A stretch of 64,000 nt of DNA from Massilia atriviolacea (GTDB lineage: Bacteria; Pseudomonadota; Gammaproteobacteria; Burkholderiales; Burkholderiaceae_D). Position 1 is the first letter of the stretch. Each line of letters starts with the position of its first letter. A program made the position numbers and the translations under genes. Below, in pieces: positions 43,047 through 61,116 of the stretch. The stretch lies in contig NZ_RXLQ01000003.1 in assembly GCF_003953935.1 (NCBI RefSeq), forward strand, positions 372,001-436,000, in the 5' to 3' direction. The notes under the pieces are model-generated. The model was not told the DNA's origin. It did no database searches and saw only the letters and a list, made by a program, of their open reading frames with translations.

Positions 43047-43793
43047 TCAATCGCGGCGCGGATTATCGGGACGGCCGTCGCGGTGGTTCGGGACGCCGTC
43101 GCCATCGCGGTCGCGGTCGGCGCGGTTGGGCACACCGTCGTTGTCGCGATCGCGGTCGTAGGCATCGGGCACGCCGTCACGGTCGCGGTCACGGTGTTCC
43201 AGGCGGTCGGGGATGCCGTCGCGGTCGCGGTCACGTCCCTCGCCATGGCGGCTCCAGCGCGCCGGTTCCATGTACCAGTGGCCGTCGCGCTGGATCCAGG
43301 CCGGCTGCGAGTACACATAGCCGGCGCGTTCGCGCATCCACTGGCCGCCGACCCAGGCGTGGCGGTTGCCGCGCCATTCCCAGTGACCGGGCACCCACAC
43401 ATGGCCGGCCCGTGGGCGCGGCACGCGTTCGTAGCGTGGCGGCGGCGGGGCGACGCGCACGACGTCGTAGTCGCGCTGCGCCACCTGGCGCCAGCCGCCG
43501 CGGTCGAGGCGGTAGCCGTCGTTATCGCGGATCCATTCGGTGCGGCGGTATTCGTAACCGCTGCGCGCGCTCTCCCAGTGGCCGGGCGTCCATACGTGGC
43601 GGTTGTGTTCCCAGTTCCAGAATCCCGGCGCCCACACGTAGCCGTGGCGCGGGGCGGGCACGCTTTCGAAGCGCGGTGGGGGCGGGGCGGTATTGATGAT
43701 CACGCGGAAATCGGTTTGAGCGACCGACGGCAGCGGCATGAAACCGGCGGCGCCAAGGGTGATCAGTGCTGCGAATGTCAGGGTGCGCTTCAT
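43047..43793 (-). CDS. YXWGXW-type repeat protein with calcium-binding repeats
   Basis: A 248-residue exported protein with a signal peptide (ends SVAQT). Two copies of a Trp-rich module follow (YVWAPGFWNWEHNRHVWTPGHWE and a second with HVWVPGHWEWRGNRHAW), typical of YXWGXW proteins. A C-terminal array of DxDxDG motifs (DRDRDGIPD, DRDRDGVPD, DRDNDGVPN, DRDGDGVPN) resembles thrombospondin type 3 calcium-binding repeats. It is probably on the outer face of the cell; the function is unknown. Confidence 0.8.
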   Translation of the reverse strand: MKRTLTFAALITLGAAGFMPLPSVAQTDFRVIINTAPPPPRFESVPAPRHGYVWAPGFWNWEHNRHVWTPGHWESARSGYEYRRTEWIRDNDGYRLDRGGWRQVAQRDYDVVRVAPPPPRYERVPRPRAGHVWVPGHWEWRGNRHAWVGGQWMRERAGYVYSQPAWIQRDGHWYMEPARWSRHGEGRDRDRDGIPDRLEHRDRDRDGVPDAYDRDRDNDGVPNRADRDRDGDGVPNHRDGRPDNPRRD

Positions 43794-44005
43794 TTTGCTT
43801 CTCCTAGTGAATTCCTGTGAGTTCAATATAGCAAGGCGTCCGGCGCGCACGGACGATTGATTCACCTGCTTACAAATGAAACAGAATCGCAGGCAAACGT
43901 AAGTTCCGTTACGTGTCCCGCAAAATTGCACAGATTGCAATCTTGCACGCTTTCGTGCGCCCCCCGCTAGTGCCAGGCAGGCCACGCGCGCGGCGTGCCG
44001 GGCGG

Positions 44006-44051
44006 GATGCGAAACGATGCGAAACGATGCGAAACGATGCGAAACGATGCG
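44006..44051 (+). repeat. Short tandem repeat GATGCGAAAC x4
   Basis: Four exact 10-bp copies of GATGCGAAAC plus a partial fifth (GATGCG) end a few bases before the transpeptidase start codon, overlapping its ribosome-site region. The unit length is not a multiple of three. Confidence 0.95.
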
Positions 44052-44056
44052 GAGAG

Positions 44057-47000
44057 ATGATGAGAGGCTGGTTCGATTCGGTTGTGCAGGCGTGCTGCGT
44101 ACGGCGGACGGCATGGCGCCGTGCGCGCCACCTGCGCCAGGGGACGCGCGCAGCGGGGGCGGCAAGCACCTTTGCCATCGGTCCGGTGCACCGGATCGGC
44201 GCCGCCGGCGTCATCGCCGCCGCGGCCGGCGCATTGCTGATCGCAGAGCACGCGCGCCACCTGGCCGCGTCGTCGGAACCCGGCGCCGCCGTCCTGCACG
44301 GCGCCGGCCTGCCGGTATCGGCAGAGGCCTTCCAGGGCGCTTTGCCCGGGGCGCAGTTCAGCGTCGCGCCGCAAGCGGGCATCGGCGTCACGTCGCATGG
44401 CGGCGCAACGCTGCTGATCGCGTCGAACCTGCGCAGCGCGCCGCCGGTGCGCATCGACCTGTGCACGCACATGCTCGATCCGGCCAATGGGCGCCTGCTC
44501 CCGCTGCGCATCGGCTACCAGTTCGCCGACGTCGCGCGCTGGGTCGCGCGCAACGCGTCGGCGGCCAGCCCGGTCACGCTGCGCAACATCGCCCTGGCCG
44601 GTCCGGATCTGGCGGGCATGCCGCAGGTTCAACTGAGCGGCAAGGCCACGGGCGACCTTGCCGGGCCGCTGCGGCTCGACTGGAATGGCGCGCAGGCCGC
44701 CACGCGCTGGGTGGGCGAGGGCGCCGGCGCGTCTGCCGGTGCGCGCGGCGCGGTCGAACTGCGGCGCGAGGGCTGGCTGGTGTGGAAGGACGCGGCCCTG
44801 CGCTTCCAGCGCCGCCCCGTCGCGCGCTGCCCGCAAGCCGGCGAACTGCTGGTCCAGCTGTTTCGCACGGGCGGCGCGGCCAGCGCCGCCAAATCACTGG
44901 CCGTGGCGTTTCCGGCCCAGGGTGCCGCCGTGTCGGCGTGGCTGGCGCCGGGACGTTACCAGGTGCCGCTGCTGCCGCGCGCCAGCCTGGAGGACCAGGC
45001 GCTGTTCCAGGCCTTGCAGCAGCGCGGCCTGGTGCGCCTCGGCGCCGGGGGGCTGGCCGAACTGGCGCCGCGCGACCTGGCGGCATGGCAGGCGGCCGGC
45101 GACGGTGCGCGCGCCGCGCAACTGGCCGGCTGGCCGGGCGCGCGCCTCGATCCCGAATCCCTGAAACTGCTCAAGCGCCTGTACCGCATGGCCGACGGCG
45201 ACTACGTGCGCGAACAGGTCCGGGTGTTCAACAGCGAACGGCGCCTGCTGGCGTGGCGCATGAAGCCGCAAGCGCCGCAGCAGGGCGGGGACTGGCAGGC
45301 CAGCGTGGCCGGCGCGCCGGCCTCGACCACGGGGTCGATGCCGCCGGCCGCCGCGCGCCTGTTCGCCGATGTGCCGCAAGGCTGGGCGCCCTGGACCCGC
45401 ATCGGCGCCTGGCCGGACGCCGCCGCCGGCGCGCCGGCGCGCCTGACCCTGGCCCTGCCGCGCGCGGCGCACGCCGGACAGCTTATCGAACTGATGCTGC
45501 TCGGGCGCCTGCTGTCGGTGCAGGGCGCGCGCGTGCGCGGCCAGCCGCGCGACGCCTGCAGCGGGCGCGATTGCCCGTCGCCGGCGTCGGTCCAGTCGCT
45601 GGTGCTGGAGCTGGAAGCGGGGGCGCGCAGCGTCAGCCTGGACGCCGCGCCGCTGCGCATGGCCTCTCTGGCGGGCGACCAGCAATACCGTCACCTGCGC
45701 GTGGCCGGCGGCCAGTTGAGCTGGCGGCCGCTGGCGGCCAACAGCGCCACCGCGCGCGCGCCATCGCTGGCGGCGGTGACGCTGGCCGACCGCCATGGCA
45801 CGGTCCTCTGGAGCGGCGGCGAGCCGACCCGCGCGGCGCTCGATGCGGGCCTGGCGCCCTTGCTGGGCATCCGCGCGGCGCACGCCAACAGCGTGGCCGG
45901 GATGCTGGCGCGCCTTCCCGCGCAGGGCGGCGCCGCCCACCAGGCGCGCCTGACACTCGACCTGGCCCTGCAAACGGCCAGCCAGCAGGCGCTGGAGTGC
46001 ATCGGCATTCGGCGCGGCCACTGGAGCGGGGGAACGTGCAGCGGCGCCAGGGCGCCGGAGCCGGGCCGCCAGGCGGGCCTGGTCATCCTCGACACCGCCA
46101 GCGGCGACGTGCTGGCGGCGGCCGGTGCCGGCGGCGGCGCCGTGACCCCGGCCAACTGGAACGAGGTGCGCGATTTCGACCGTGCCAATCCGGCCCGCAG
46201 CCCCCTGCGCCTGCCGGCCTTGCAGCACGACGGCGGGGCGCACCGCAGTCCCGGCTCGACCTTCAAGGTGATCAGCGCCCTGGGGCTGGAACTGGCCGCC
46301 GGGCGCGATCCGCAGCTCGAAGCGCTGCTGGCCGGCCTGCCGCTGCCGGCGATCAACCGCATGGCGCAGGCCAAGGGCTTCGCCTTCCAGACCAACGCAG
46401 CCAGCTACCCGCAGGGCACCCGGCTGGCCCACATCACCAACTACAAGGACCAGCACCTCGACCGGCGCGCGCAGGATGGGCGGCTCGGCCTGTCGCAGGC
46501 GCTGACCTACAGCCTCAATACCTGGTTCGCCTGGTCCGGCGAATTGAGCGACCGCAGCCTGTTCGGCCGGCCCGAGGGCGGCGCGCCCGACCTGCAGGCC
46601 CTCGATGGCGGCGCCCTGGACAGCGTGCGCCCGATCGTGGCGATGGCGCACCGCCTCGGCTTCGAACAGGCTACGCGCCTCGATGGCGGACTGCTGCCGC
46701 CCGATTATGCGTGGTCGACCTGGGACGCGCTGCAAGCCAGTCCCGCCCACATCGATCCGATTCATACGCGCCACGAGCTGCGCCAGATGGCGATCGGCCT
46801 GCGCATGCAGGTCACCCCGCTGCAAATGGCGCTGGTGTCCGGCGCCGTGGGCGAGGGCAGGGTGATCGCCCCGCGCCTGCTGCTCTCGCTCGACGGGCGC
46901 CCAGCGCAGGCGGGCGCGCGGCCGGCGCTGGGCGTGCGGGTGGACCGGGTGCGGGCCGGGATGAAGGGCGTGGTCGACCATGGCACGGCGGCCGGCGCCT

Positions 47001-47266
47001 TTCGTGGTGCGAACCTGGAGGCGGTGCGGCGTGGCCTGTCCGGCAAGACCGGCACCTCGCCCTCGCTGGTCGACGGGCGCGAGCTGGCCACGGTATGGTT
47101 CACCGGCTGGCTGGAACCGGGCAGCCTGCCGGGGCAGACACGGCGCCTGGCGGTGGCGGCTTTTGTCAGCCATTCCGACGCCACCGGCGGCGAGCACGCG
47201 GCGCCCATCGTGGCCGCCGTGCTGGGGGCGATGGCGGCGCAGAATCCGGAACAGAAGGGTAAATAG
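44057..47266 (+). CDS. Transpeptidase-domain protein (PBP-like) with long N-terminal region
   Basis: A 1069-residue protein. An N-terminal membrane helix (about 45-65, RIGAAGVIAAAAGALLIAEHA) is followed by about 640 periplasmic residues I cannot assign. The C-terminal penicillin-binding domain has all motifs: SPGSTFKVI (Ser734), SLN in TYSLNTWFAW (Ser819) and SGKTGTSPS (Lys997). No glycosyltransferase domain is seen. GGAG precedes two adjacent ATGs (44057 and 44060). The frame stays open to 43913 through the tandem repeat. It heads the row of genes up to 55887 and is unusual in size for a class B PBP. Confidence 0.85.
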   Translation: MMRGWFDSVVQACCVRRTAWRRARHLRQGTRAAGAASTFAIGPVHRIGAAGVIAAAAGALLIAEHARHLAASSEPGAAVLHGAGLPVSAEAFQGALPGAQFSVAPQAGIGVTSHGGATLLIASNLRSAPPVRIDLCTHMLDPANGRLLPLRIGYQFADVARWVARNASAASPVTLRNIALAGPDLAGMPQVQLSGKATGDLAGPLRLDWNGAQAATRWVGEGAGASAGARGAVELRREGWLVWKDAALRFQRRPVARCPQAGELLVQLFRTGGAASAAKSLAVAFPAQGAAVSAWLAPGRYQVPLLPRASLEDQALFQALQQRGLVRLGAGGLAELAPRDLAAWQAAGDGARAAQLAGWPGARLDPESLKLLKRLYRMADGDYVREQVRVFNSERRLLAWRMKPQAPQQGGDWQASVAGAPASTTGSMPPAAARLFADVPQGWAPWTRIGAWPDAAAGAPARLTLALPRAAHAGQLIELMLLGRLLSVQGARVRGQPRDACSGRDCPSPASVQSLVLELEAGARSVSLDAAPLRMASLAGDQQYRHLRVAGGQLSWRPLAANSATARAPSLAAVTLADRHGTVLWSGGEPTRAALDAGLAPLLGIRAAHANSVAGMLARLPAQGGAAHQARLTLDLALQTASQQALECIGIRRGHWSGGTCSGARAPEPGRQAGLVILDTASGDVLAAAGAGGGAVTPANWNEVRDFDRANPARSPLRLPALQHDGGAHRSPGSTFKVISALGLELAAGRDPQLEALLAGLPLPAINRMAQAKGFAFQTNAASYPQGTRLAHITNYKDQHLDRRAQDGRLGLSQALTYSLNTWFAWSGELSDRSLFGRPEGGAPDLQALDGGALDSVRPIVAMAHRLGFEQATRLDGGLLPPDYAWSTWDALQASPAHIDPIHTRHELRQMAIGLRMQVTPLQMALVSGAVGEGRVIAPRLLLSLDGRPAQAGARPALGVRVDRVRAGMKGVVDHGTAAGAFRGANLEAVRRGLSGKTGTSPSLVDGRELATVWFTGWLEPGSLPGQTRRLAVAAFVSHSDATGGEHAAPIVAAVLGAMAAQNPEQKGK

Positions 47267-47288
47267 GGCTTTCAAGCGCGCCTTGCCG

Positions 47289-47335
47289 ATCCCCGTTGTA
47301 TGGCATCATTTTGATGCTCGAACAACGATGGGGAT
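47289..47335 (+). promoter_or_regulatory. Hairpin covering the ribosome site of the next gene
   Basis: ATCCCC-GTTGT pairs with ACAAC-GGGGAT (3-base bulge), enclosing a second perfect stem GCATCA-ttt-TGATGC. The right arm holds the GGGGAT ribosome-site sequence 3-4 bp before the ATG at 47339. Translation of that gene could be restrained by this structure. Confidence 0.5.
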
Positions 47336-47338
47336 GGT

Positions 47339-48586
47339 ATGCGCTTGCCGGGAACCCGGTATCAGGAACAAGGCTGGGAACAGGTGCGCAAACTGCTTGG
47401 GCACTGTTCCCTGGAGGCGTTCGGCGTCCTCTCGCCCGCGCACCTGTCCGATGCGCTGGCCGGGTATGTCGACCTGACGGCGGAAGCGCTGCGCGCCTGC
47501 GCGCGCTCGGCGCGTGCCGAGGCTCCGGCCAACAGCTATGGCGAGAGCGTGCTGGAACTGTCGCTCAGCCTGTTGTACGAATTGCAGGCCCGTCCCGCCG
47601 ACTGGGCCGCCCTGTGCGACGCCGTGGACAAGGAATACGGGAAGATCGGCGCCTTCTGGACGGCGCCCGGGGGCGACGCCATCCTGCGCAAGAAGGTCAA
47701 CGACATGTACGCGGGCCTGCGCGACAAGGTCGATTCGGACAACTACCAGGCCGCCTGCGGACGGGCGTGCAGTCCGAACAAGATGTATGCCTATCGCATG
47801 CTCGATACCGCCTACAGCGATATCGCGCGCCTGTTCGGCGCCTGGCGCGAGCACCCCGAGCAGGTCGGCGCCATCCTCGGGCGCGAGGTGACGGCAATGC
47901 CGATCGAAGCACGCCAGATGCGCGCCATCGGGGCCTGCAAGGCGCAATGGGTGCTGCGCTGGAGCGAGTCGCTGGAACGCTTCGGCGGCGCCGCCGGTCC
48001 CCTGCACACCAAATCCAAACGCTTCGCCAACCTGAAAACCAGCCCTGACAAAATCGGCGCCATGCTGGCCGAGATCGGCGACTACGAAGAACTGTCGTCG
48101 AACCGCGACAGCGACTGGCTGCACGACGCCGGCGAAGCGGCCAACTGGCTCGACGACCTGTGGCGCGTGAGCGATGCCGCCGTCGAGGAGGGCGAGGGCC
48201 GCATCCTGGCGGAGGTGGAGCCCGACAGCGAAGCCCCGGACCCCGATCCCGAGCCTGCCGAGGCGCCCGAAGCGGTCGCGTACGACACCGCGATCGCGGC
48301 CAGCCTTTCACTGCCCCCCCGCTTCATGGAACTGGCGTGGTCGGCGCAGGACCACGCCAGCTGGACCGCCCGCGCGCTGGCGGCCTATTCGCTGCCGGTG
48401 CGGCTGGCGGTGTACCTCAAGACGATCGGTGGGCTGGACGACAGCTATCCCGGCGAATGGCTGGATCCGGCCACCGGCGAGCTGCCGACCATGCAGCAGC
48501 TGGCGGTGCTGGACCAGGTGTCGCTGCCGACCCTGCGCAAGCGCCGCGACGCCGCCATCGCCAGCCTGCTGGAGGCAGTTCCATGA
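47339..48586 (+). CDS. Hypothetical protein in transpeptidase/kinase gene row
   Basis: A soluble 415-residue protein not recognised. It is mostly helical with an acidic, Pro-rich linker around residue 290 (DSEAPDPDPEPAEAPEA). The C-terminal part (LPPRFMELAWSAQDHASW to LPTLRKRRDAAIASL) may be a small helical domain. The start follows a hairpin that includes its ribosome site. Its stop overlaps the next gene by 4 bp (ATGA). Function unknown; context puts it in the same unit as the transpeptidase and Ser/Thr kinase. Confidence 0.7.
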   Translation: MRLPGTRYQEQGWEQVRKLLGHCSLEAFGVLSPAHLSDALAGYVDLTAEALRACARSARAEAPANSYGESVLELSLSLLYELQARPADWAALCDAVDKEYGKIGAFWTAPGGDAILRKKVNDMYAGLRDKVDSDNYQAACGRACSPNKMYAYRMLDTAYSDIARLFGAWREHPEQVGAILGREVTAMPIEARQMRAIGACKAQWVLRWSESLERFGGAAGPLHTKSKRFANLKTSPDKIGAMLAEIGDYEELSSNRDSDWLHDAGEAANWLDDLWRVSDAAVEEGEGRILAEVEPDSEAPDPDPEPAEAPEAVAYDTAIAASLSLPPRFMELAWSAQDHASWTARALAAYSLPVRLAVYLKTIGGLDDSYPGEWLDPATGELPTMQQLAVLDQVSLPTLRKRRDAAIASLLEAVP

Positions 48587-49167
48587 AGGAGAATGATGTG
48601 AAAGTGAACCAGGAACCGGACCGCAAGCTGCTCGAACGGCTGCTGCTGTCGCCCCGCGTGGAGGGCGACCGCCTGATGCTGGCCGATGCCGTGCTGCTGG
48701 CGGCCCTCGACGGCAGCCATCCCTTGAACCGCGCCGAACTGGCCGCCTTGCGTGCCTCGCCGCTGACCTTGCGCCGTTTTCGCCAGTTGTCCATCGCGCG
48801 CCGCAACGGTGCGCGCGCGGCCAACGACGAGGCCTGGAGCGGCAGCGCCGGCATGCTGCGCGCCGCTGACGATGGCGCCGACCTTGAGCGCCTGCTGACC
48901 GACGACGGCCACTGGAGCTTGCATTTCGTGGCGCAGGACGGCGCCTGGCGCCTGATCCTCTCGCTCGACGCCGCCGCGCCGTTCGCCGCGCGCCTGCTGC
49001 GCGAGCAGCCGATGCTGCGCGTGGTCGACGGCGGCGGCGCGATCCTGCTGCAAGGCCGGCTCGATGCCGATGGCGAAGTGGAATGCGGCTGGCCCTTCGA
49101 GGGCGCGCCCGCGCCGCACTTCCAGCAGTTCGGCGCGCACTTCGCGGTCGAACCGGTGCACGTGTGA
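48583..49167 (+). CDS. Hypothetical protein (194 aa) in the same operon
   Basis: A soluble 194-residue protein. Residues 10-75 are helical (RKLLERLLLSPRVEGDRLML, ALRASPLTLRRFRQLS). The second half is beta-rich with W, F and short charged loops (HWSLHFVAQDGAWRLILSLD, GAILLQGRLDADGEVECGWPF). No known motif. It overlaps the upstream gene by 4 bp and the next begins within or a few bases after its stop, so it is translationally coupled to both. Confidence 0.7.
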   Translation: MKENDVKVNQEPDRKLLERLLLSPRVEGDRLMLADAVLLAALDGSHPLNRAELAALRASPLTLRRFRQLSIARRNGARAANDEAWSGSAGMLRAADDGADLERLLTDDGHWSLHFVAQDGAWRLILSLDAAAPFAARLLREQPMLRVVDGGGAILLQGRLDADGEVECGWPFEGAPAPHFQQFGAHFAVEPVHV

Positions 49168-49175
49168 GTAACGCC

Positions 49176-50225
49176 ATGATCGGCCTGTTCAAGCGTCCCG
49201 CCAGAACCACCCCGCCCGACACGTCGGCGCTCGGCACGGCCACGCTGGCGCTGCGCATGGGTTCCGGCTGCACGGTGCCGAAGGGCTGCACCGGCGTGGT
49301 GGCCGACGGCGGCGGCCACACGCGCCGCGTGGCCGAGGGCACCCGCATCGTCCTGGCCGAGACCGAGAACGCATTCTGCTTTCATCCCGGCCCGTACGGC
49401 GCCGACCTGCTGCCCTTCGCGGGGGCGCCGGAACTCGGCCTGCGCCTGTCGTTCGCCGTCGACGCGCCCGATCCGCGCGTGGCGCAGCAGCGCTTCGACC
49501 TGTTCCTGGCCAGCGAGGCGGGCGACACGCTTGCTCTCTCCGCATTCGCCGCGTCCGTCGAGTCGGCGCTCCAGCAGGAGCTGGCGCTGGGCCACCTGGC
49601 GCTGCCGCCGTGCACTACGCTGGACGAATGGAATGCGTTTCGGGGCGGCTTCAATCAACTGTTGTATACCCGCTTCGGCATCAGCGTCGACGATTGCGTG
49701 CCGGTGGACCTGGGCGACCGGGTCGACTACGCCGCCATGCTGCTCGCGCGCGCGGCCGACGTGCCGCAGGCGGAGCCGCCGCCGTCAAAGGCCGCCGCCG
49801 CGCCCGTCGACGCCCAGGGCAGCGATGCCAGGGCGCTGCGCCGCCTGTTCCTGGAACTGCCCTGCGTGATGCACGGCCTGCGCATGGCGGTGCTGCCGCC
49901 GGGCCAGGCGCTGTTCCAGCAGCATAGGGCGCTGCTCCAGCGGCTCGACCAGGTCAGCCTGTCGGTAAACACCATGCCGGCACTGGAACTGGCCGCGCCG
50001 GGCGAGCCGCTGGCGGCCGAACGCCAGCGTGCGCGCACGCGCCACAGCCTGCGCGCCAGCGCCGCCCTGGATGAAGCGTGGGCGCTGCTGGCGCGCCTGG
50101 GACTGGCGGGCGAGGGCGAACTGGCGCCGCTGTTCGACGACGCCGACCGCATCATCGCCAATCTCGAACACGAATGCGCCGCGCGCCGCGTGGCCAATCC
50201 CACGGCCGAAAGCGAGCCGGCATGA
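49176..50225 (+). CDS. SPFH-like or virion-core-like protein, hypothetical
   Basis: A 349-residue protein. Residues 15-150 recall the head part of the larger SPFH-like protein downstream: a beta-strand start (CTVPKGCTGVVADGGGHTRRV), then a long helix pair (SVESALQQELALGHLALPP and FRGGFNQLLYTRFGI). The C-terminal half is helical. The similarity is by pattern, so the family is a guess. GTG 49164 is an in-frame alternative start overlapping the previous stop. Its stop overlaps the next gene (ATGA). Confidence 0.6.
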   Translation: MIGLFKRPARTTPPDTSALGTATLALRMGSGCTVPKGCTGVVADGGGHTRRVAEGTRIVLAETENAFCFHPGPYGADLLPFAGAPELGLRLSFAVDAPDPRVAQQRFDLFLASEAGDTLALSAFAASVESALQQELALGHLALPPCTTLDEWNAFRGGFNQLLYTRFGISVDDCVPVDLGDRVDYAAMLLARAADVPQAEPPPSKAAAAPVDAQGSDARALRRLFLELPCVMHGLRMAVLPPGQALFQQHRALLQRLDQVSLSVNTMPALELAAPGEPLAAERQRARTRHSLRASAALDEAWALLARLGLAGEGELAPLFDDADRIIANLEHECAARRVANPTAESEPA

Positions 50226-51235
50226 GATGCGCAAACGACAAGCGCCACGGCGCCGAATGCCGCAGCGTGCTGGCCGGCGGGGCGCTGCTGACCGTCAGCG
50301 CCACGGTGCGCCCGCGCGCCGGCCGCGCCGACGTCAAATGCAGCGGCGCCGGCGACGCCGCCGTGGCCGAACGCATGCAGCAGGTGGTGCGCCTGGCGCG
50401 CCTGACCGAAGGCTGTGTCGACAGCCGCGACCAGGTGGTCATCAGCATCGACCGCGCGCCCGGGCGCCATGAACGCGACTGGGAACTGGCCGTGGTGCTG
50501 GCCGACCGCATGGCGCGCGGAGTATGGCAGCCCGCCGGCCCGGTGCTGGCCAACGGCTGGTCCGAGCAATGGCAGCTGGGACGCATCGGCGGCCATGACG
50601 TGGCCAATGCGCCGGCCCACGCGCTGCTGGGCGGGCCCGCTGGCCTGGGATGGCTGGGCGCCCTGACCGGGCAGCCCGACAGCGCGGCCAGCGTGGCCTC
50701 GGCGCGCGCCTGGTTTCCGCTGCACAGCGGCGGCATCAACGACAGTTTGTGCTGGGTCGAGGTGAGCGTTCATCCGCTGGCCGGGGCGGGCGGGGATGAG
50801 GAAGAGAGCATCGCCGCGCCGGGCCTCGACCCGGTCCAGCTGCTGGCGGTGCGCCAGGCGCTGGCCGGGGCGCGCCACTTCGACGGCCGCGCGCTGGGGC
50901 GCTGGCGCACGGTGGTGCGCTTCGGCCAGGCGCGCTTCCAGGGCAATTCCTTCGAACTGGCGCTGGTGATGGCCGACCGCATGGCGCGCGGACGCGAATT
51001 TGTGGCGCGCGGGCGGCTCATCGCCAGCGGCTGTTCGGGCGCCTGGCATGCGGGGCGGGTCGATACGGTCGAAGGCTGCGCGCCGAAGTGCGCGCTGATC
51101 CTGCAGCAAACCGTGGCCGGCGACCGCATTTTGCTGCCCAAAGCGTGGGAAAGCGCGCTGGCGCCCGGGTTTGCCGAGGCGCTGCGCGCGCGCGGCGCCA
51201 GCGTGGCGCTGGTCGAGCGGATCGGGATTATTTGA
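50222..51235 (+). CDS. Protein with two tandem ChlI/Lon S5-like domains
   Basis: A 337-residue protein with an internal duplication. Segment ELAVVLADRMARG (about residue 88) recurs as ELALVMADRMARG (about residue 246). The first half follows the order of the ChlI N-terminal S5 fold: beta strand LTVSATVRPRAG, GAGDAAVAERMQQVV, then VVISIDRAPGRHERDWELAVVLADRMA. No AAA+ ATPase motor and no catalytic Ser-Lys are visible. A structural role or protease regulation is possible but unproven. It overlaps the preceding gene by 4 bp. Confidence 0.6.
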   Translation: MRCANDKRHGAECRSVLAGGALLTVSATVRPRAGRADVKCSGAGDAAVAERMQQVVRLARLTEGCVDSRDQVVISIDRAPGRHERDWELAVVLADRMARGVWQPAGPVLANGWSEQWQLGRIGGHDVANAPAHALLGGPAGLGWLGALTGQPDSAASVASARAWFPLHSGGINDSLCWVEVSVHPLAGAGGDEEESIAAPGLDPVQLLAVRQALAGARHFDGRALGRWRTVVRFGQARFQGNSFELALVMADRMARGREFVARGRLIASGCSGAWHAGRVDTVEGCAPKCALILQQTVAGDRILLPKAWESALAPGFAEALRARGASVALVERIGII

Positions 51236-51352
51236 ACACCCGTTTACATGACCCGCGTGCGCGGCGGTGGTGCGTGGCGTCCCCTGCTAAAATCGGGACG
51301 GCCGGGGCTGGATTGGTAAAAAGTGGTGCAAGTTGAACAACCAGGAGTCGAT

Positions 51353-53593
51353 ATGTTGCAGATGTTTGGTTTTGGCGGACTTACCTGTCCGCGTTGCGAG
51401 CATCACAATGCCGGCGATGCGGGCTATTGCGCCAAGTGCGGGCTGACCTTGGGCGCGCCGCGCAACGAACCGGTATTCCGCGAGAACCGCTGGATTCCCG
51501 GCCCCGACGAACTGGCCGTGTTTTTCGGCGTCGAACAGCTTTCGGGCCTGTTCGTCAAGACCTTGCGGGTGCCGGCGACCACGCGCGCCTACATCCTCCA
51601 GGCGGGCAAGGCGACCGAAGTGCCGCAGGGCGAATACGAGATCGAGGGCTTCTTCACGCGCCTCAATCACCTGCTGCGCAACCAGCACGCCGAAATCCTC
51701 ATCACCCGCACCGCCGCAATGCCGGTCGAATTTTCCTTCGACGACCTGCAAACGGCCGAACACCTGGCCATCGGCGCGCAGTTGACGGTCAGCGTGAAGA
51801 TCGAGCAGGTGAGCGCCTTTGCCCAGCACTTCATGACCATGCCGGGCGCGGTCGGCGCAAGCCACCTGCGCGAACTGCTGGCGCCTTCGGTACGCCAGCT
51901 GGCGGCCGAATTCATCGCCGGCCAGTCGATCCGCGACATGGCCGGCAACCGCGACCTGCGCCCGCAGCTCGACGAGCGCCTGCAAGGATCGCTCAAGCTG
52001 CGCCTGGCCCAGTACGGGCTGGCGGTATCCCAGGTCGATACGCTGTCCCTGCGCCACGATAAATTCGACGCCCACCAGGCGCGCATCGGCACCCTGTGGC
52101 TGGTGGCCGACGAGCGCCACGTCAAGCTCGAACACGCCAAACAGCTCGACCAGCTCTACAACGACGAAGAATGGCAGCGCATCCGGGTCGAAGAGCAGCA
52201 GAACCGCCTGCGCTACCGGCGCCAGGAACTGCGCCAGGACGACAGCATCGAAAAAGCCGAGCTGACCTTGCAAAACGCCGAGCGCCTGCAGGCGCTGCGC
52301 GCGCGCGAGATCGACCTGTATGGGCGCATCGTCGAGTCCAGGAACCGCAAGCAGGCGCTGGAACGCGGCGCCGGCGACATCGTCACCGAACTGGAACACG
52401 AACTGGCCAAGAAGGGCGCCGCGCGCGAGGACGAATCGACCGAGTGGGCGCACCTGCGCCACCTGGCCCAGATCCGCATGCGCACCGAGCTCGAAGTGGC
52501 GCAGCAGGGCGCGCTGGAGATGCGCCAGCTGGCGCAGCAGCGCTTTTCGCACCAGTTGCTGCAGCAGCAGATCGACAACAAGATCGCGCAGGCGCTGGGG
52601 ATCGAGGACGAGGCGCGCAAACGCGCCGAAGTGGCGCGCCTGCACCAGGCGCAGCAAGCGGCCAACGAACGCCAGGCGGCCATGGAAGCGGAGCAGCACA
52701 CGGCCCAATGGCAGTCGCTGGCGCTGGCCAACGCGGCCTACAAGCGCGAGGCCGAGCGCATCGCCGAATGGGAAGAGGAGCTGGCGCTGGACCGCAAGCG
52801 CGACCTGCTGCGGGCGGACATGCTCAAGGATGCGGGCGCGAAGGCCGACGCCGAAGACATCAACCAGAAGATCGCGGCCCTGCGGCGCGGCGGCGCGCAG
52901 CAGGACGCCATCGCCCAGCACGAAAAGCTGCTGCGCACGATCGAGGCGGACGGGCGCCATGCGCGCCAGTCGCAGCAGATCGCGCTGGAAGCGGAAGAGC
53001 GGCGCCACGCCTTGCGCCAGCAGGAGCAGGAAGCGGCCTGGCAGCAGGAACTCAAGCGCCTCGCCCACGAACGCGAGACCCAGTTCGCGCGGCAGGCGCA
53101 CGAAGCGGAACTGGCGCGCATCGAGATCGATCGCGTCTCGACCATCGGCAACCTGAGCGACACCGGCAAGGTGGCGCTGGCGGCCGGTCCCAACGCGCTG
53201 GCGCTGGCCGACGTGATGAAGACCCAGGTCCACGCCGGCATGACGCCGCACCAGCTGGCGGCGCTGGCGTCGGTGGTGGCCGCGACCTACAGCGTGACGC
53301 CGGCGGAAGCGGCGCGCGGGGCGCAGGAAAGGGCCGAGCGCGAACGCGCCCTGCGCGACGCCGAAGTGGACAAGGACCGGCGTCACCAGCTCGACCTGCT
53401 GGGCATGCAGAACGACGTGAACAAGGCGGCGCTGGCCTCGCAGTCGGCGCTCGGCACCGGCGTGGCGCAGGGCGGCGCGCAGGTGCGCTATGATCAGGCC
53501 CCGCGCCCGCAGGTGCGCATGTGCGTCAACGGGCACCGGGCCGGTCCCAACGATAAATTCTGCGCCGAATGCGGCGCGGCGATCCAACCTTGA
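51353..53593 (+). CDS. Zinc-ribbon / SPFH-like / coiled-coil protein
   Basis: A 746-residue cytosolic protein. An N-terminal zinc ribbon has CPRC...CAKC, and a second at the C-terminus has CxxGHR...FCAEC. Between them lies an SPFH-like head (about 35-240) with FGVEQLSGLFVKTLRVPATTRAYIL and IGAQLTVSVKIEQVSAFAQHF, followed by a long charged coiled coil (about 250-650) rich in Arg, Glu and Gln. CAGGAG supports ATG 51353. It likely forms large oligomers. A kinase gene follows within 9 bp. Confidence 0.75.
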   Translation: MLQMFGFGGLTCPRCEHHNAGDAGYCAKCGLTLGAPRNEPVFRENRWIPGPDELAVFFGVEQLSGLFVKTLRVPATTRAYILQAGKATEVPQGEYEIEGFFTRLNHLLRNQHAEILITRTAAMPVEFSFDDLQTAEHLAIGAQLTVSVKIEQVSAFAQHFMTMPGAVGASHLRELLAPSVRQLAAEFIAGQSIRDMAGNRDLRPQLDERLQGSLKLRLAQYGLAVSQVDTLSLRHDKFDAHQARIGTLWLVADERHVKLEHAKQLDQLYNDEEWQRIRVEEQQNRLRYRRQELRQDDSIEKAELTLQNAERLQALRAREIDLYGRIVESRNRKQALERGAGDIVTELEHELAKKGAAREDESTEWAHLRHLAQIRMRTELEVAQQGALEMRQLAQQRFSHQLLQQQIDNKIAQALGIEDEARKRAEVARLHQAQQAANERQAAMEAEQHTAQWQSLALANAAYKREAERIAEWEEELALDRKRDLLRADMLKDAGAKADAEDINQKIAALRRGGAQQDAIAQHEKLLRTIEADGRHARQSQQIALEAEERRHALRQQEQEAAWQQELKRLAHERETQFARQAHEAELARIEIDRVSTIGNLSDTGKVALAAGPNALALADVMKTQVHAGMTPHQLAALASVVAATYSVTPAEAARGAQERAERERALRDAEVDKDRRHQLDLLGMQNDVNKAALASQSALGTGVAQGGAQVRYDQAPRPQVRMCVNGHRAGPNDKFCAECGAAIQP

Positions 53594-53601
53594 CAGGACA
53601 G

Positions 53602-55887
53602 ATGCAAACGGCAAGAGACAAGATCCGCGAACTGCGCAGCCTGCACGAAGATGGCCTGTTAAGCCAGCAGGAGTTCGACAGCCGCAAGAACGCCATCCTG
53701 GATGCGGAGTACGCGCCGCCCGGCGGCAGCGGTACGCCCATGGCGCCGGCGATCCACATCCGCCAGGGCACCGAGATCGGGCTGATGGTGGGGCAGGAAA
53801 TCGGCCCGCAGAACCGCCGCTACCGCCTCGAACAGCTGATCGCGCAGGGCGGCATGGGCCAGGTGTGGCAGGCGATGGACCTGGCCACGCACGCAGAACT
53901 CGGTCACAGCGCGATGGTTGCGCTCAAGATCCTGCCGCCGCAGCTCACGCAAAGCGCCACCCACGCCAAGCTGCTGATCGAAGAAGCGACCCAGGCGCGC
54001 CGCCTCGCGCACGAACACATCGTGCGGGTCTACGAGTGGGCGCAGGACCCTGCCACGTCGAGCTACTTCATCATCATGGAATGCCTGGAAGGCGAGGACC
54101 TCGACAGCCTGCTGGCGCGCGAGGGGCCACTGAGCCTGGATCGGGTGCAGGCGCTGCTGGCGCCCATTTCGGACGCCTTGCAGTACGCATGGGAGAAGCA
54201 CAAGCTGGTGCACCGCGATATCAAGCCTGGCAATGTCTTCGTCACCAAAAAAGGCGAGATCAAGCTGCTCGACTTCGGCATCGCCGCGCGCGCGCGCAGC
54301 AGCGCAAGCAGCATCGGACTGGAAGCGCCCGGCAATTCCGGCACCGCCGGCTACCGCGCACCGGAGGCGGGCACCCTGCAACGCCAGCCCAGCCGCGCGC
54401 TCGACGTGTACGCGGTGGCGGTGATGATCTACCAGATGGTGGAAGGGCGCATGCCTTTCGACGGGCCGCGTAGCGCCAGTCACGAGCCGCCGCGGCCCGA
54501 GGCGCTGTCCGCACGCGAATGGGATGCGCTGCGCAGCGGCTTCGCCTTCGATCCCGACCAGCGCCCGGCCACGGTGCCGGACCTGCTGGCCGCCCTGCGC
54601 GGTGCGGTGGGTCCGTCGCCGCAGGAGCTGGCGGCGCAGCATGCCGCGCAACAGGCCGAGGAACAGGTGGCGCACGCGGCGCAGCAGGCGGCCCAGCGCG
54701 CGCAGGAAGAACTGCGCGCCAGGCAGCTGGCGGTGCAGCGCAAGGCCGAGGCGGAAGCGGCCGCCGCCGCCCATCTGCTCAAGGAAAAGCAGCGCAAGGA
54801 ACAGGAAGCCATCGAGCGCGCCGAAGCCGATGCGGCCAAGCGCGAACGCAAGGAGGCGCTGAGCAAGCAATTGCGCGAGCGGCGCGAGGCCGACGCCGAA
54901 AAGGCGCGCAAGGCGCGCGAGGAACAGCAGCGCAAGGCGATGCAGGCCAAGGCGGTGGCTGCCTATCGCGCCGAGCAGCAGCGCGCGCGCGAAGAAATGG
55001 CCGAACGCAGCGTGGCCGAAGTGACGGCCCAGCTGCCCGAGCAAAGCGGCCCGGTGGCCGATACCGACGGCGTGCTGCGCGACCGCTTCCTGGACGGCAC
55101 GGGCAAGGGGCCGGAACTGGTGCTGCTGCCGACCGGGCGCTTCCAGATGGGGTCTCCCGAGCACGAACGCAAGATCGCGATGCGGGCCGGCTCCCAGCAA
55201 TCGTGGGTGGAACGCGAAACGCCGCAGCACTGGGTCGGCATCGAGCAGCCGCTGGCGATGGGGCGTTTTCCGGTCACGGTGGGCGAGTGGCGCCAGTTCG
55301 TGCGCGCCACCGGCTGGCAGCCGCATGGCGAAGTCAATTGGGCCGATCCCGGTTTCGCCCAGACCGACGAGCATCCGGTGGTCGGCGTGACCTGGCACGA
55401 CGCGCAGCAGTACGTGCGCTGGCTGAGCGAGAAGACCGGGCAGCTCTACCGCCTGCCGAGCGAGGCGGAGTGGGAATACGCCTGCCGCGCCGGCACAAAG
55501 ACTGCCTTCAGCTTCGGCGACGAGATCGACACCACCCTGGCCAACTACGACGGCAACTACACCTACAACGGCAGTCCCAAGGGCGAGTACCGCCAGGGCA
55601 CCACGCGCGGCGGATTATTCCCGCCCAATCCGTGGGGGCTGTACGACATGCACGGCAACGTGTGGGAGTGGGTGCAGGACCCGGTGCACGACAACTACGA
55701 AGGCGCGCCGAACACCGGCGACGCCTGGGAGCAGGGCGGGGACCAGAGCCGGCGCATCCTGCGCGGCGGATCGTGGCTGTACAACCCGCGCTACCTGCGC
55801 TCGGCCCTGCGCAACGGGTTTTCGGCGCAGTTAAGTAACGATATCGTGGGCTTTCGGGTCGCGCGCAATATCGTCACCCCATCATGA
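53602..55887 (+). CDS. SHOCT-Ser/Thr kinase-coiled coil-FGE fusion protein
   Basis: A 761-residue protein. Residues 1-35 are a SHOCT motif (KIRELRSLHEDGLLSQQEFD). The kinase (about 75-340) has glycine loop IAQGGMGQVWQA, catalytic LVHRDIKPGN and DFG. An Ala/Glu/Arg coiled coil spans about 345-480. The C-terminal FGE-sulfatase domain (about 500-760) has LVLLPTGRFQMGSPE, LPSEAEWEYACRAGT and MHGNVWEWVQD. FGE domains of kinase fusions often act as binding modules; Cys residues for oxidase activity are not evident. TTG 53590 is an alternative start. Confidence 0.85.
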   Translation: MQTARDKIRELRSLHEDGLLSQQEFDSRKNAILDAEYAPPGGSGTPMAPAIHIRQGTEIGLMVGQEIGPQNRRYRLEQLIAQGGMGQVWQAMDLATHAELGHSAMVALKILPPQLTQSATHAKLLIEEATQARRLAHEHIVRVYEWAQDPATSSYFIIMECLEGEDLDSLLAREGPLSLDRVQALLAPISDALQYAWEKHKLVHRDIKPGNVFVTKKGEIKLLDFGIAARARSSASSIGLEAPGNSGTAGYRAPEAGTLQRQPSRALDVYAVAVMIYQMVEGRMPFDGPRSASHEPPRPEALSAREWDALRSGFAFDPDQRPATVPDLLAALRGAVGPSPQELAAQHAAQQAEEQVAHAAQQAAQRAQEELRARQLAVQRKAEAEAAAAAHLLKEKQRKEQEAIERAEADAAKRERKEALSKQLRERREADAEKARKAREEQQRKAMQAKAVAAYRAEQQRAREEMAERSVAEVTAQLPEQSGPVADTDGVLRDRFLDGTGKGPELVLLPTGRFQMGSPEHERKIAMRAGSQQSWVERETPQHWVGIEQPLAMGRFPVTVGEWRQFVRATGWQPHGEVNWADPGFAQTDEHPVVGVTWHDAQQYVRWLSEKTGQLYRLPSEAEWEYACRAGTKTAFSFGDEIDTTLANYDGNYTYNGSPKGEYRQGTTRGGLFPPNPWGLYDMHGNVWEWVQDPVHDNYEGAPNTGDAWEQGGDQSRRILRGGSWLYNPRYLRSALRNGFSAQLSNDIVGFRVARNIVTPS

Positions 55888-56072
55888 GCATGCCGCCTGC
55901 CGGTCTGCCACACGCCAAACCAGTCGTTTTTACCTGACTTGCCCAGGGCCGCTTGGTGGCGGCCGTATGGATTTTCGGGATGGGGCCGGGGACACCCCCA
56001 TTCCGTGGGATGCGCAATCGCGCGAAACGGTGTAAATTCCGCCAACACCCACCCTCATCCAGAAGGAAACCC
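55888..56072. other. Intergenic gap with GC hairpin
   Basis: A 185-bp gap. It contains GGCCGC-ttggtg-GCGGCC (about 55949-55966), a stable stem without a T-run. It may mark the end of the kinase operon and the promoter region of the OsmC gene. Confidence 0.35.
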
Positions 56073-56477
56073 ATGTCCATTACCGTCAAGCGCGATCTGT
56101 CGCAGCCGATGCGCCACATCGTCCACGTGCGCAACCACCTCATTCCCGCCGACGGCTCGGTCGAGGAGGGCGGGGCCGATGCCGGTCCGTCCCCGCACGA
56201 CCTGTACGACGCCGCCCTCGGCGCCTGCAAGGCCCTCACGGTGGTCTGGTACGCCAAGCGCAAGGGCATTCCCGTTGAAGACATCGAAGTGACCATCGAC
56301 CGCGACGCCAGCGACGAGCGCAAGGGCGTGTACCGCCTGTCGGCCGCGCTGCACCTGGGCGGCGACCTGTCCGAGTCGCAGCGCGCCGACCTGCTGGCGG
56401 CCGCCGAAAAGTGCCCGATCCAGAAACTGATGACCGGCGTGACCACCGAAATCACTACCACCCTGGTGCAGCCGTGA
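56073..56477 (+). CDS. OsmC family protein
   Basis: A 134-residue OsmC-fold protein. The two reactive Cys are in LGACKALTVVWYAK and AEKCPIQKLM, the pattern of thiol peroxidase-type OsmC or YhfA proteins. It also has PSPHDLYDAALGAC. Relatives reduce organic hydroperoxides. AGAAGGAAAC precedes the ATG. Its stop overlaps the GTG start of the pirin gene, so the two are co-expressed. Confidence 0.88.
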   Translation: MSITVKRDLSQPMRHIVHVRNHLIPADGSVEEGGADAGPSPHDLYDAALGACKALTVVWYAKRKGIPVEDIEVTIDRDASDERKGVYRLSAALHLGGDLSESQRADLLAAAEKCPIQKLMTGVTTEITTTLVQP

Positions 56478-57382
56478 GCGTCGTCCACTTCTTCAAGCCG
56501 CACGAAAAAGACATCGGCGGCGGCTTTCGCGTGCGGCGCGTGCTGCCGGCGGCCGCCAAGCAGGCGGTCGGGCCGTTCATCTTCTTCGACCACTTCGGTC
56601 CGATCGATGCGCCGGCCGAGGCCAACCACGATGTGCGCCCGCACCCGCACATCGGCCTGGCCACCGTGACGTATCTGTACGAAGGCGCGATGGAGCACCG
56701 CGACAGCGTCGGCTCGGTGCAGCGCATCGAACCGGGCGCGATCAACTGGATGACGGCCGGGCGCGGCATCGTCCACTCCGAGCGCACCCCGCCCGACCTG
56801 GCCGGCAAGCCGCGCCGCTCGCACGGCCTGCAGCTGTGGGCCGCGCTGCCGCGCGCGCACGAGGAGGACGCGCCGAGTTTCGCGCACACGCCGGCGGACG
56901 CGATTCCGGTGGAGCGGCTCGACGGCGCGCTGGTGCGGGTGCTGATCGGCAGCGCCTACGGCCATACCTCGCCGGTGGCGACCTTCAGCGAAACGCTGTA
57001 TCTCGACATCACCCTCGATCCGGGCCGCAGCATCGAGCTCGACAACCTGCCGCAGGAAGCGGCGATCTATCCGGTCACGGGCGAGATCGCCATCGATGGC
57101 GAGCTGCTGGCGCCGCACACGATGGCCTGTCTCGACGCCGGCAGCGGCGCCAGCGTGTACGCCGCCGCCGGCGCGCAGTTCGTGGTGATCGGCGGCGCGC
57201 CGTTGGACGGCCACCGCCACATGGTGTGGAATTTTGTATCGTCGAGCAAGGAGCGCATCGCGCGCGCGGTCGAGGACTGGGAACAGCAGCGCTTCGACCA
57301 GGTACCCGGCGAGACCGAATTCATTCCTTTTCCAAAACGCCAGGCAGGCACTGGCGGTCAGGCCCCCTTGGCGCGGGAATGA
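56474..57382 (+). CDS. Pirin family protein (second copy)
   Basis: A 302-residue bicupin. Metal-site motif VRPHPHIGLATVTYLYEG and HRDSVGSVQRIEPGAINWMTAGRGIVHSE in the N-terminal cupin, LDITLDPGRSIEL and EAAIYPVTGEIAIDGE in the second. The start is a GTG overlapping the OsmC stop (GTGA). It is not a close copy of the pirin at 32-33 kb; motif variants differ (HPHIGLAT versus HPHRGFET). Its exact role is unknown, though its pairing with OsmC suggests oxidative stress. Confidence 0.9.
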   Translation: MSVVHFFKPHEKDIGGGFRVRRVLPAAAKQAVGPFIFFDHFGPIDAPAEANHDVRPHPHIGLATVTYLYEGAMEHRDSVGSVQRIEPGAINWMTAGRGIVHSERTPPDLAGKPRRSHGLQLWAALPRAHEEDAPSFAHTPADAIPVERLDGALVRVLIGSAYGHTSPVATFSETLYLDITLDPGRSIELDNLPQEAAIYPVTGEIAIDGELLAPHTMACLDAGSGASVYAAAGAQFVVIGGAPLDGHRHMVWNFVSSSKERIARAVEDWEQQRFDQVPGETEFIPFPKRQAGTGGQAPLARE

Positions 57383-57601: not shown

Positions 57602-57920
57602 GCACGCACCCGGCCGGCGGCTTCGCGCTGCCGGCTTTTCCCTTCCTTGCTCCGCGCATTTTCCTTCAATCAAGCCGCGTTGCGCCGGACCGCAAGGTAT
57701 GCACGCGCCCCGTTGTGACAATGCATATGCAATTTTGCATGCCATAACCACTGCTTCCACGCGGAAGATTATTGGTTCGGCCATATTCAAGCGCGCCCGT
57801 GCCCGCTTGTGTTCCTTCGATACAACGATTTAGCGAATTTGAAGTGATCCTCGGTATCTAAAAAGTTGCCCGTAGTCCACAATCCTTTCCCTCGAAACAA
57901 GCAACCAATTGAGGAAAAGA
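57602..57920. promoter_or_regulatory. Leader region of first porin unit with conserved 95-bp block
   Basis: No gene. The segment 57733-57827 is repeated without gaps at 59723-59817 ahead of the second porin gene. Shared stretches include TTTTGCATGCCATAA, GGTTCGGCCATATTCAAGCG and TGTTCCTTCGATACAACG. It ends about 94 bp before the ATG, so it probably holds promoter and regulatory sequence. Confidence 0.6.
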
Positions 57921-59120
57921 ATGAATCAACCACTGCGCCTGGCCCTGGTCACCGCGATCCTGGCAGCCTTCAGTGTTTCATCGCATGCAGCCGATGATGC
58001 GCCAACCGTCACCATCAGCGGGTTCGGCACTGCCGCCCTGACCGCCGCCGATACCGACGATGTCGAATACGCGCGTTTCAACCAGGCCGCCGGCGTGGGC
58101 AACAGCCCGCGCGCCGGCGTGGATTCCAATTTCGGCATCCAGGGCACCGCCAAAATCAACGACTGGCTGTCGTTCACCGCGCAGGGCCTGGCCCGCAAGA
58201 ATGCACGCGATTCCTACGGCGCCGAACTGAGCTGGGCGTTCGCCAAGTTCAAGGTCAGCGACGAAGTGTCGATCCGCGTCGGCCGCATCGGCATGCCGGT
58301 CTACATGATTTCCGATTTCCGCCAGGTGGGCTACGCCAACACCATGATCCGTCCGTCGCAGGAAGTGTACGGCCAGGTCTACGGCGATTCCTACGATGGC
58401 ATCGATGCGATGTACCAGCACAACTTCGGCGAGACCACCGTGACCGCGCAAGTCGGCGTCGGCAAGATGTCGACCAAGGTCGTCGGCGACAACCGCATCG
58501 AATACAAGCCAGCCACGACCATCCACATCGTCGCCGAGAACGGCCCGTTCACGCTGCGCTTCGGCCGCGCCGACGCCAAGGTCACCCTGGAAGACAGCGA
58601 AACGCTGGACGGCCTGCTGGCCACCCTGCGCAAGGTTGGCATGGGCAATGTCGCCAACCAGCTGTCGGTGACCGATGTGGACGGCTCGTTCACGTCGCTC
58701 GGCTTCACCATGGACTACAAGAACGTCCTGCTGCAGACCGAATACGCCGTGCGCAAGACCGACTCGCTGGTGATTCACGACACGACGTCGTACTACGCGA
58801 TGCTCGGCTACCGTTTCGGCAAGGTCACGCCGTACTATTACTATGGCAACGTCAAGCAGGACAGCGACCGCGCCTACGCCGGCCTGCCATCGACCGGTCC
58901 GCTGGCGCCGCTGAGCGCCGGCGTGAACACCGCCATGAAGGCCGGCCTGCAGTCGACCAACGCGGTCGGCGTGCGCTGGGACTTCCACAAGTCGGCCGCC
59001 CTGAAGGTACAGGTCGACCGCATCAAGCCGCGTGACGGCTCGGGCACCTTCCTCAACGCCAAGCCGGGCTTGCGCGATGCGGTCAATGTCTACGCCGCCG
59101 GCATCGACTTCGTCTTCTAA
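57921..59120 (+). CDS. Porin-like outer membrane protein, copy 1
   Basis: A 399-residue beta-barrel protein with a signal peptide (ends SSHAAD). The barrel pattern is evident in repeated aromatic strands (VSIRVGRIGMPVYMISDF, FTLRFGRADAKVTLEDSE) and a C-terminal Phe (IDFVF), the usual outer-membrane insertion signal. It has about 75% visible identity to the copy at 59.9 kb. The gene for a small phosphate-binding-like protein follows within 10 bp. Together they may serve anion uptake, which is inference. GAGGAAAA precedes the ATG. Confidence 0.85.
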   Translation: MNQPLRLALVTAILAAFSVSSHAADDAPTVTISGFGTAALTAADTDDVEYARFNQAAGVGNSPRAGVDSNFGIQGTAKINDWLSFTAQGLARKNARDSYGAELSWAFAKFKVSDEVSIRVGRIGMPVYMISDFRQVGYANTMIRPSQEVYGQVYGDSYDGIDAMYQHNFGETTVTAQVGVGKMSTKVVGDNRIEYKPATTIHIVAENGPFTLRFGRADAKVTLEDSETLDGLLATLRKVGMGNVANQLSVTDVDGSFTSLGFTMDYKNVLLQTEYAVRKTDSLVIHDTTSYYAMLGYRFGKVTPYYYYGNVKQDSDRAYAGLPSTGPLAPLSAGVNTAMKAGLQSTNAVGVRWDFHKSAALKVQVDRIKPRDGSGTFLNAKPGLRDAVNVYAAGIDFVF

Positions 59121-59130
59121 GGAGAGCAGC

Positions 59131-59541: not shown

Positions 59542-59909
59542 TCGATTGGCCGGGCCTGCGGGTCCGGCAAGCAGTCGCACGCTCATCCATTGCGGCGGCC
59601 TTCACGGCCGCGCAATGTCTCCTCGCAGCATCTCCGCAGTCATCCTCTTTTTCCCTTCGGATCGCCTTTGCTTGCCAAGCGTAATTCACGCTTGCGCTTC
59701 GTCACGTTCAAAGCTTTTATCTTTTTGCATGCCATAAAAATACGGCTGAGCAGGAAGCTTATTTGTTCGGCCATATTCAAGCGCGCCAATGCCTGTCTAT
59801 GTTCCTTCGATACAACGCTTTCGTTAATTATGCTGCGTCCGCTGTACACAAATAGTTACCCGTGGCCCACACTAGGGCCTCAGCACTTGCGAACCATTGA
59901 GGAGAAAGT
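59542..59909. promoter_or_regulatory. Leader region of second porin unit
   Basis: A 368-bp gap. The first part holds a hairpin GCCGGGCC-tgcg-GGTCCGGC (about 59550-59570) lacking a T-run, perhaps a weak terminator. The part 59723-59817 is the second copy of the 95-bp block found at 57733-57827. No gene was seen. Confidence 0.6.
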
Positions 59910-61106: not shown

Positions 61107-61116
61107 GGAGAGCAGC

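Follow-up and report, generated by a model that had tools for sequence, protein, structure and literature searches.

A conserved seven-gene set of Massilia and its link to a kinase-SEDS operon: a candidate accessory peptidoglycan synthase under Ser/Thr phosphorylation control

We describe here seven genes of Massilia atriviolacea, g1 to g7, which keep their order among relatives and which, as judged from sequence, are part of a larger module that includes a second operon encoding a kinase and a SEDS polymerase. On balance we think it likely that g1-g7 and this second operon together constitute an accessory synthase for peptidoglycan, controlled by Ser/Thr phosphorylation. The evidence is computational and comprises conservation, gene order, co-occurrence, one joint absence of two genes, a shared upstream motif, domain matches and predicted folds. 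We did not find the g1-g7 set described in the open-access literature searched.

Layout of the seven genes and their upstream elements

The window analyzed here is the whole 64,000-nucleotide stretch of M. atriviolacea contig NZ_RXLQ01000003.1. From its ORF list and translations, positions 44057-55887 are filled by seven plus-strand reading frames, in agreement with the strand and positions given by the first-pass annotation. That annotation also counted three 4-bp stop/start overlaps. Two of these are firm, at 48583-48586 (g2/g3) and 50222-50225 (g4/g5), but the third, at 49164-49167 (g3/g4), requires a GTG start for g4; the ATG, 12 bases past the GTG, leaves an 8-bp gap after g3. The gap between g5 and g6 is 117 bp long and contains a promoter-like element, so the seven genes need not share one transcript. 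This element, P2 (CTGCTAAAAT, 51284-51293, plus strand), is extended -10-like; an equivalent stands before g6 in 19 of 27 loci, L023 not being counted, and in 0.3% of random stretches. Upstream of g1 lies P1 (CCCCCGCTA, 43961-43969, plus strand), part of a motif around CCYCCGCTA that follows a T-rich run and is present in 18 of 19 loci (L020 and L023 left out; L016 has no motif by regex). Both elements come from the comparison of loci, and a sigma-70 scan of the region returned no promoter-like site by its own rule. A gene with WXXGXW repeats (43050-43793, minus strand) diverges from g1 and is a frequent neighbor, occurring in 15 of the 16 named loci described below.

Several other features flank the set. 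A tandem repeat of GATGCGAAAC (44006-44051) runs for 4.6 perfect copies immediately before g1, and none of the 18 orthologous loci checked has it. Behind g7 come OsmC and pirin genes (56070-57382), with an OsmC match in the fetched flank of 6 of the 16 named loci and also in L033, L072 and L075, all without g1-g5. Further on, at 57909-61524, the translations read as a pair of similar outer-membrane-like genes with a small secreted-protein-like gene behind each, an arrangement that looks like a tandem duplication.

Domains and predicted folds of the encoded proteins

Matches over Pfam cut-offs were obtained for the transpeptidase domain of g1, the Band_7/SPFH domain of g6, and the kinase and FGE domains of g7. 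Pfam gave no match for g2, g3, g4 or g5, and NCBIfam and PADLOC gained no assignment for them, nothing reaching a useful score in any of the three libraries (g3 being searched as a single sequence only). The earlier view that the set matches no named system is supported to this extent: the genes are conserved as a set, and the unassigned proteins among them have no match in any family of these libraries.

The g1 protein (44057-47266, plus strand) is a long transpeptidase, as annotated, and is class B PBP-like (Pfam 2.9e-13). Its 1069 residues include a long region with no family match, and a PDB sequence search with the C-terminal part found no match. By regex, the SxxK and KTG-type motifs are each kept in 19 of 19 loci and SxN in 16 of 19 (L020 and L023 dropped). 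Hydropathy picks out a modest membrane-helix-like stretch near the start of g1, the sole such stretch among g1-g7. The next two genes, g2 (47339-48586) and g3 (48583-49167), both on the plus strand, encode conserved proteins that remain without a family, as first described, in Pfam and profile searches for g2 and in Pfam and a single-sequence scan for g3. The start of g2, MRLPG.RYQE.GWE.VRK, is almost invariant. A GntR-type HTH was considered for g2 and not accepted (2 of 17 members, best E 0.091), and PDB sequence searches with the g2 and g5 profiles returned chance-level rows only.

The g4 protein (49164 with the GTG start or 49176 with the ATG, to 50225, plus strand) had been proposed as a possible short SPFH-like protein. 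Its predicted structure (pLDDT 82.9) has a beta-rich N-terminal part followed by helices, and the top Foldseek match is flotillin (E 2e-3, prob 0.97), with HflK/C further down (prob 0.87) among V-ATPase hits; none of these matches reaches E 1e-3, and TM-scores are about 0.25. Profile comparison of g4 with g6 gave an hhalign probability of 1.4%. On its modeled fold, g4 is probably a second SPFH-type protein, in modest agreement with the proposal. The g6 protein (51353-53593, plus strand) matches Band_7 at 8.1e-7; its SPFH domain is followed by a long coiled-coil-like region, and the two are flanked by a zinc ribbon on either side. The SPFH part of its original description is confirmed, while the two zinc-ribbon stretches each score a little below the Pfam cut-off. 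No clear membrane helix was found in g4 or g6 by hydropathy.

The g5 protein (50222-51235, plus strand) was first read as a tandem S5-fold protein with no motor, which proved right and can now be sharpened to a Lon-type fold. Its two halves match each other (hhalign 97.6%), and the predicted structure (pLDDT 85.7) has the Lon proteolytic domain 4ypm as its best Foldseek match (E 2.8e-8), the best 50 of 899 rows being all Lon, RadA or ComM. The second copy contains Ser243 and Lys289, invariant in 19 of 19 sequences, whereas the first copy has no such serine and carries a tryptophan in its place. In the model, Ser243 lies right before a helix and Lys289 within a later helix, as for the Ser-Lys pair of Lon; the spacing of the two residues is 46, against 43 in Lon. 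The relation to Lon rests on fold and residue positions, sequence methods being negative: hhalign against Lon_C gave no more than 1.4% for the whole protein and the second half and 2.4% for the first half, pairwise alignment with Lon scored 25 against a shuffle mean of 25.5, and Pfam gave no Lon match. Nor did Pfam find an AAA+ motor in any of g1-g7. Peptidase activity of g5 is plausible from this model.

The g7 protein (53602-55887, plus strand) is composed of a SHOCT-type start, a Ser/Thr kinase, a charged linker and an FGE-like (C-type lectin) domain. The kinase (2.8e-39) and FGE-like domain (9.5e-58) of the annotated fusion are secure, and SHOCT scores a little below the Pfam cut-off. An HRD-type kinase motif is present by regex in 25 of 26 sequences (L023 dropped), and hydropathy shows no helix-like membrane stretch. 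PASTA domains were found by Pfam in neither g7 nor the kinase of the second operon. The stretch of human FGE that holds the active-site cysteine pair aligns to a cysteine-free stretch of g7, and the FGE-like domain of g7 is, by this alignment, without the FGE cysteines. It shows no hypervariable block among five close sequences. A conflict system diversified by a DGR was considered and rejected, there being no reverse transcriptase near the FGE gene and no hypervariable stretch. One g7 orthologue (L034:4854-8036) reaches 1061 residues, its kinase and FGE-like domain being separated by a far longer linker.

Co-occurrence of the genes and the second operon

Scanning GTDB contigs with g6 yielded 16 named loci from Massilia, Duganella and an Oxalobacteraceae assembly, and g1-g7 stand in the same order in all 16, at identities down to 42%. 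In L020 g1 is cut by the contig end; several genes of L023 (Massilia sp. H-1) have broken frames, perhaps a matter of assembly quality. Among 195 genomes of the family, g6 is found in 58, g5 in 38 and g1 in 36. All 36 g1-bearing genomes are among the 38 with g5 (Fisher 3e-37, not a true probability as the genomes are related), and all 38 copies of g5 adjoin g6, within about 135 bases when coordinates are compared; g5 is lacking from 20 of the 58 g6-bearing genomes. The separate promoter-like elements of g1 and g6, and the finding of the blocks apart in some genomes, could be taken to mean that the genes are merely co-located with no joint function. We regard this as very improbable given the linkage of g1 to g5 and of g5 to g6, the persistence of gene order across identities that range from about 40 to over 90%, and the lack of scattered copies in the 195 family genomes searched, scattering among relatives being what the first-pass annotation had said would count against the set.

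In L033, L071, L072, L073 and L075, g6-g7 lie beside the divergent WXXGXW gene without g1-g5 (the L071 contig is 4.8 kb long and cuts g7). Four loci of one genus combine an SPFH gene, a kinase lacking the FGE part and an FHA protein, whose gene adjoins the others in three of these loci and lies 3.4 kb away in L027. As far as sequence comparison can tell, g1-g5 and g6-g7 are two blocks that can be separated, each with a promoter-like element of its own. The original idea of a seven-gene unit holds for the conserved set but not as simply one operon, and the set appears as part of a larger module.

The rest of this module lies outside the window. About 17-22 kb past g7, on the minus strand, is an operon encoding a kinase, a SEDS polymerase, a 501-aa protein and an SH3 protein. 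Between the window and this operon are PP2C-like and FHA genes, among others, so that the whole group is 12-22 kb beyond g7, at about 68256-78069 in window-equivalent coordinates, with g1 and the SEDS gene about 30 kb apart. Pfam matches in the region are SEDS (PF01098, 4.3e-22), kinase (2e-31) and FHA (PF00498, 7.5e-6, over cut-off); the PP2C-like gene matches PP2C_2 at E 0.0025, below the cut-off. The 501-aa protein (L091:13227-14729) has no Pfam match and is well conserved across the genomes fetched. All 29 of 29 SEDS frames contain PxxxDDF, a narrower regex having given 6 of 30. The first-pass suggestion of a wall reshaped by the transpeptidase under kinase control thus gains a nearby SEDS polymerase, a second kinase, and FHA and PP2C-like genes.

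The SEDS gene follows g1 closely across genomes. It is present in 30 of 33 g1-bearing genomes with downstream sequence (28 above 150 bits, G171 and G120 at 148-149), these 33 being drawn from the 36 with G003, G091 and G181 left out. In two of the other three (G108, G125) the contig ends before the SEDS position; in G045, searched over 50 kb of its 60-kb contig, the FHA and PP2C-like genes were likewise not found. No SEDS gene was found in the stretches fetched nearby in any of 19 genomes without g1, comprising 14 that lack g1-g5, three from the FHA-SPFH-kinase genus, G182 and G001. The resulting contrast of 30/1 against 0/19 (Fisher 7e-13) is to be discounted for kinship. The 14 genomes without g1-g5 carry FHA in 14 of 14 and the PP2C-like gene in 12 of 14. 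A telling case is G182, which keeps g2-g7, the second kinase and the 501-aa, SH3, PP2C-like and FHA genes, and lacks both g1 (no match genome-wide at E 1e-30) and this SEDS gene. Here only 676 bases separate g2 from the WXXGXW gene, and 117 bases lie between the second-kinase and 501-aa matches with no SEDS gene between them.

The two operons also share an upstream motif. Of 30 genomes compared, G182 being one, 21 have the g1-type motif upstream of the second kinase, against 0.4% of random stretches, and close variants can be made out by eye in several of the nine that the regex misses. In the 7.36-Mb M. atriviolacea genome a fuller pattern has three matches, against one for the reversed control. 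(This pattern contains TTTC and was used for the genome count after a first version with TTTT, which matched nothing in the genome.) One site is before g1 and another, 34 kb from it, before the kinase-SEDS operon; the third is within the end of a gene reading as a cytochrome-type oxidase, probably by chance.

Outside the family the set is rare: when 250 to 399 genomes were drawn from each of the class, the order and the phylum, only one belonging to another family, G603, gave a match. The SPFH profile matched in 3 of 250 genomes in the order draw, the g3 profile in 7 of 399 in the order draw and the g5 profile in 2 of 398 in the phylum draw, and the SPFH single sequence matched in 1 of 274 in the class draw, this being M. 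atriviolacea itself. G603 (loci L070 and L076) carries g2-g5, a 183-aa protein, an FtsK-type ATPase, FGE, SH3 and SPFH genes, and a caspase-FGE fusion, near a tyrosine integrase; PADLOC reports HerA/SspH-type and caspase matches, and the SH3 protein is similar to the one encoded in the SEDS operon (29%, E 3e-13). No match to g1, the kinases or SEDS was found within 24 kb. Similarly, G001 has g2-g6, and within 69 kb none of g1, g7, the second kinase and SEDS was matched. Since both genomes carry g2-g6 without wall genes, g2-g6 are not bound to the wall genes, and this keeps alive a conflict or defence reading, which the first-pass annotation had offered as phage or stress defence and which we consider unlikely. 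The SPFH protein, Lon-type peptidase and FGE-like sensor would here detect an invader, the kinase (or caspase) would kill or arrest the cell, and the transpeptidase would be accessory. The G603 arrangement, in which g2-g6 accompany an FtsK/HerA-like ATPase and a caspase-FGE fusion next to an integrase, fits this, as do the proposal of FGE-like domains as conflict-system sensors, in PMC7159879 and PMC10907252, and the resemblance in PADLOC of the g7 kinase to PD-T4-6 and Mad6 kinases. Direct support was nevertheless not obtained. The g7 kinase matches are generic, g5 gave a weak PADLOC match (E 0.012) and no single PADLOC defence system matches the set; g6 was not found in phages nor g5 in plasmids, and no g5 match in viral contigs was confirmed. 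The upstream WXXGXW neighbor makes the place look stable rather than island-like, no reverse transcriptase is near (4 matches in the genome, 0 in the window), the FGE-like domain has no hypervariable block, and the link to g1 and SEDS is tight.

The same genomes bear on how g2-g6 relate to wall synthesis: either they form a general platform for which the wall synthase is one output, or the wall genes are an addition recruited within this family. Tentatively, and with less conviction than we hold for the synthase itself, g2-g6 might be a portable SPFH platform with a motor-less Lon-type peptidase that connects phospho-signals or other triggers to interchangeable outputs. These outputs could, equally tentatively, be the SEDS-transpeptidase synthase in Massilia and Duganella and the caspase with FtsK-like ATPase in the other family. 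An SPFH platform with a built-in motor-less Lon-type peptidase was not found described in the open-access literature searched.

Proposed working and comparison with known systems

In the kinase-controlled synthase that we favor, the transpeptidase g1 and the SEDS glycan polymerase would be a cognate wall-building pair, and the apparently soluble kinase g7, with its FHA partner and the PP2C-like protein, would set the phosphorylation state. The g6 protein, probably with g4, would form an SPFH scaffold that brings kinase and synthase together at the inner membrane; this is suggested by the SPFH domain and zinc ribbons of g6, which recall YdjI. At this scaffold g5 might act as a motor-less Lon-type peptidase or processing factor, the least certain step, and the FGE-like part of g7 would bind a ligand or protein rather than make formylglycine. 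What we infer here from the genomic observations is the purpose of the module and, within it, which proteins pair physically, what the kinases target, how the scaffold assembles and that g5 may be active as a peptidase. If the synthase reading is true, the module is a Gram-negative counterpart, made of other parts and tied to SPFH proteins and a motor-less Lon-type protein, of the kinase-linked actinobacterial synthases considered below, and such wall control has evolved or spread more than once. Being present in only part of the family, g1-g7 should be deletable, unlike core synthases. The conserved proteins of no family (g2, g3 and the 501-aa protein) would gain a context, and the role of SPFH scaffolds in wall synthesis would become testable in one locus.

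Individual parts of the module resemble several known systems. Like the Lon (S16) proteolytic domain and the Lon-like domains of RadA and ComM, g5 has the predicted fold and the Ser and Lys placement; unlike them it is motor-less and tandem, its first copy is without the serine, and sequence similarity is not detectable. HflK/HflC-FtsH likewise combines two SPFH-type proteins (g4 being the probable one here) with a protease, but g1-g7 contain no FtsH or other AAA+ motor, and their peptidase-like member is of the Lon type. Conflict systems that bear FGE (VMAP ternary systems, DGR targets) also join an FGE-like C-type lectin domain to a kinase (in G603, to a caspase), whereas g1-g7 have no MoxR, vWA or STAND components and no reverse transcriptase nearby.

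The YdjFGHI operon of Bacillus subtilis with PspA is similar in placing SPFH and zinc-ribbon proteins in an envelope operon, as described in PMC8581546 and PMC11237479, and in the former deletion of the YdjI partners YdjG/H is reported to misplace wall synthesis under stress. Together with the SHOCT-type start of g7, this likeness would fit membrane repair under envelope stress, with SPFH and zinc-ribbon proteins steadying the membrane and the wall genes responding. We think this quite unlikely: a PspA-type domain is present in none of g1-g7, nor in nine neighbors scanned, in contrast to YdjFGHI/PspA, and G182, in lacking both g1 and SEDS, points to wall synthesis as such.

For a phosphorylation-controlled wall synthase the closer comparisons are with SEDS-transpeptidase pairs. 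As in RodA-PBP2 and FtsW-FtsI, a SEDS family protein and a transpeptidase occur together, and SEDS polymerases require cognate class B transpeptidases, according to PMC8078798. The Massilia pair differs in the length of g1, with its long unassigned region, in its restriction to part of one family, and in the distance between the two genes. The genes for such a pair stand together with kinase, PP2C and FHA genes in Actinobacteria, and a kinase-phosphatase link is reported for Firmicutes also, in PMC6554272. The actinobacterial pstP-rodA-pbpA-pknA-pknB-fhaA/B locus has, as described there, a SEDS protein, a transpeptidase, two Ser/Thr kinases and FHA components in one neighborhood, as Massilia does, and a PP2C-type phosphatase, to which the PP2C-like gene with its match below the Pfam cut-off may correspond, and it is because these roles are seemingly filled in Massilia that phosphorylation-controlled wall synthesis is proposed. 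The Massilia genes form two operons in opposite orientation with other genes between them rather than one cluster, neither kinase has PASTA domains, g7 has no clear membrane helix, and SPFH, Lon-type, FGE-like, SH3 and unassigned proteins are added; the likeness is one of parts list. The actinobacterial locus is the functionally closest known system, from which the Massilia set departs in kinase architecture and in clustering. The best reading is that the Massilia set works like the pstP-rodA-pbpA-pknAB-fha locus while not being a member of it.
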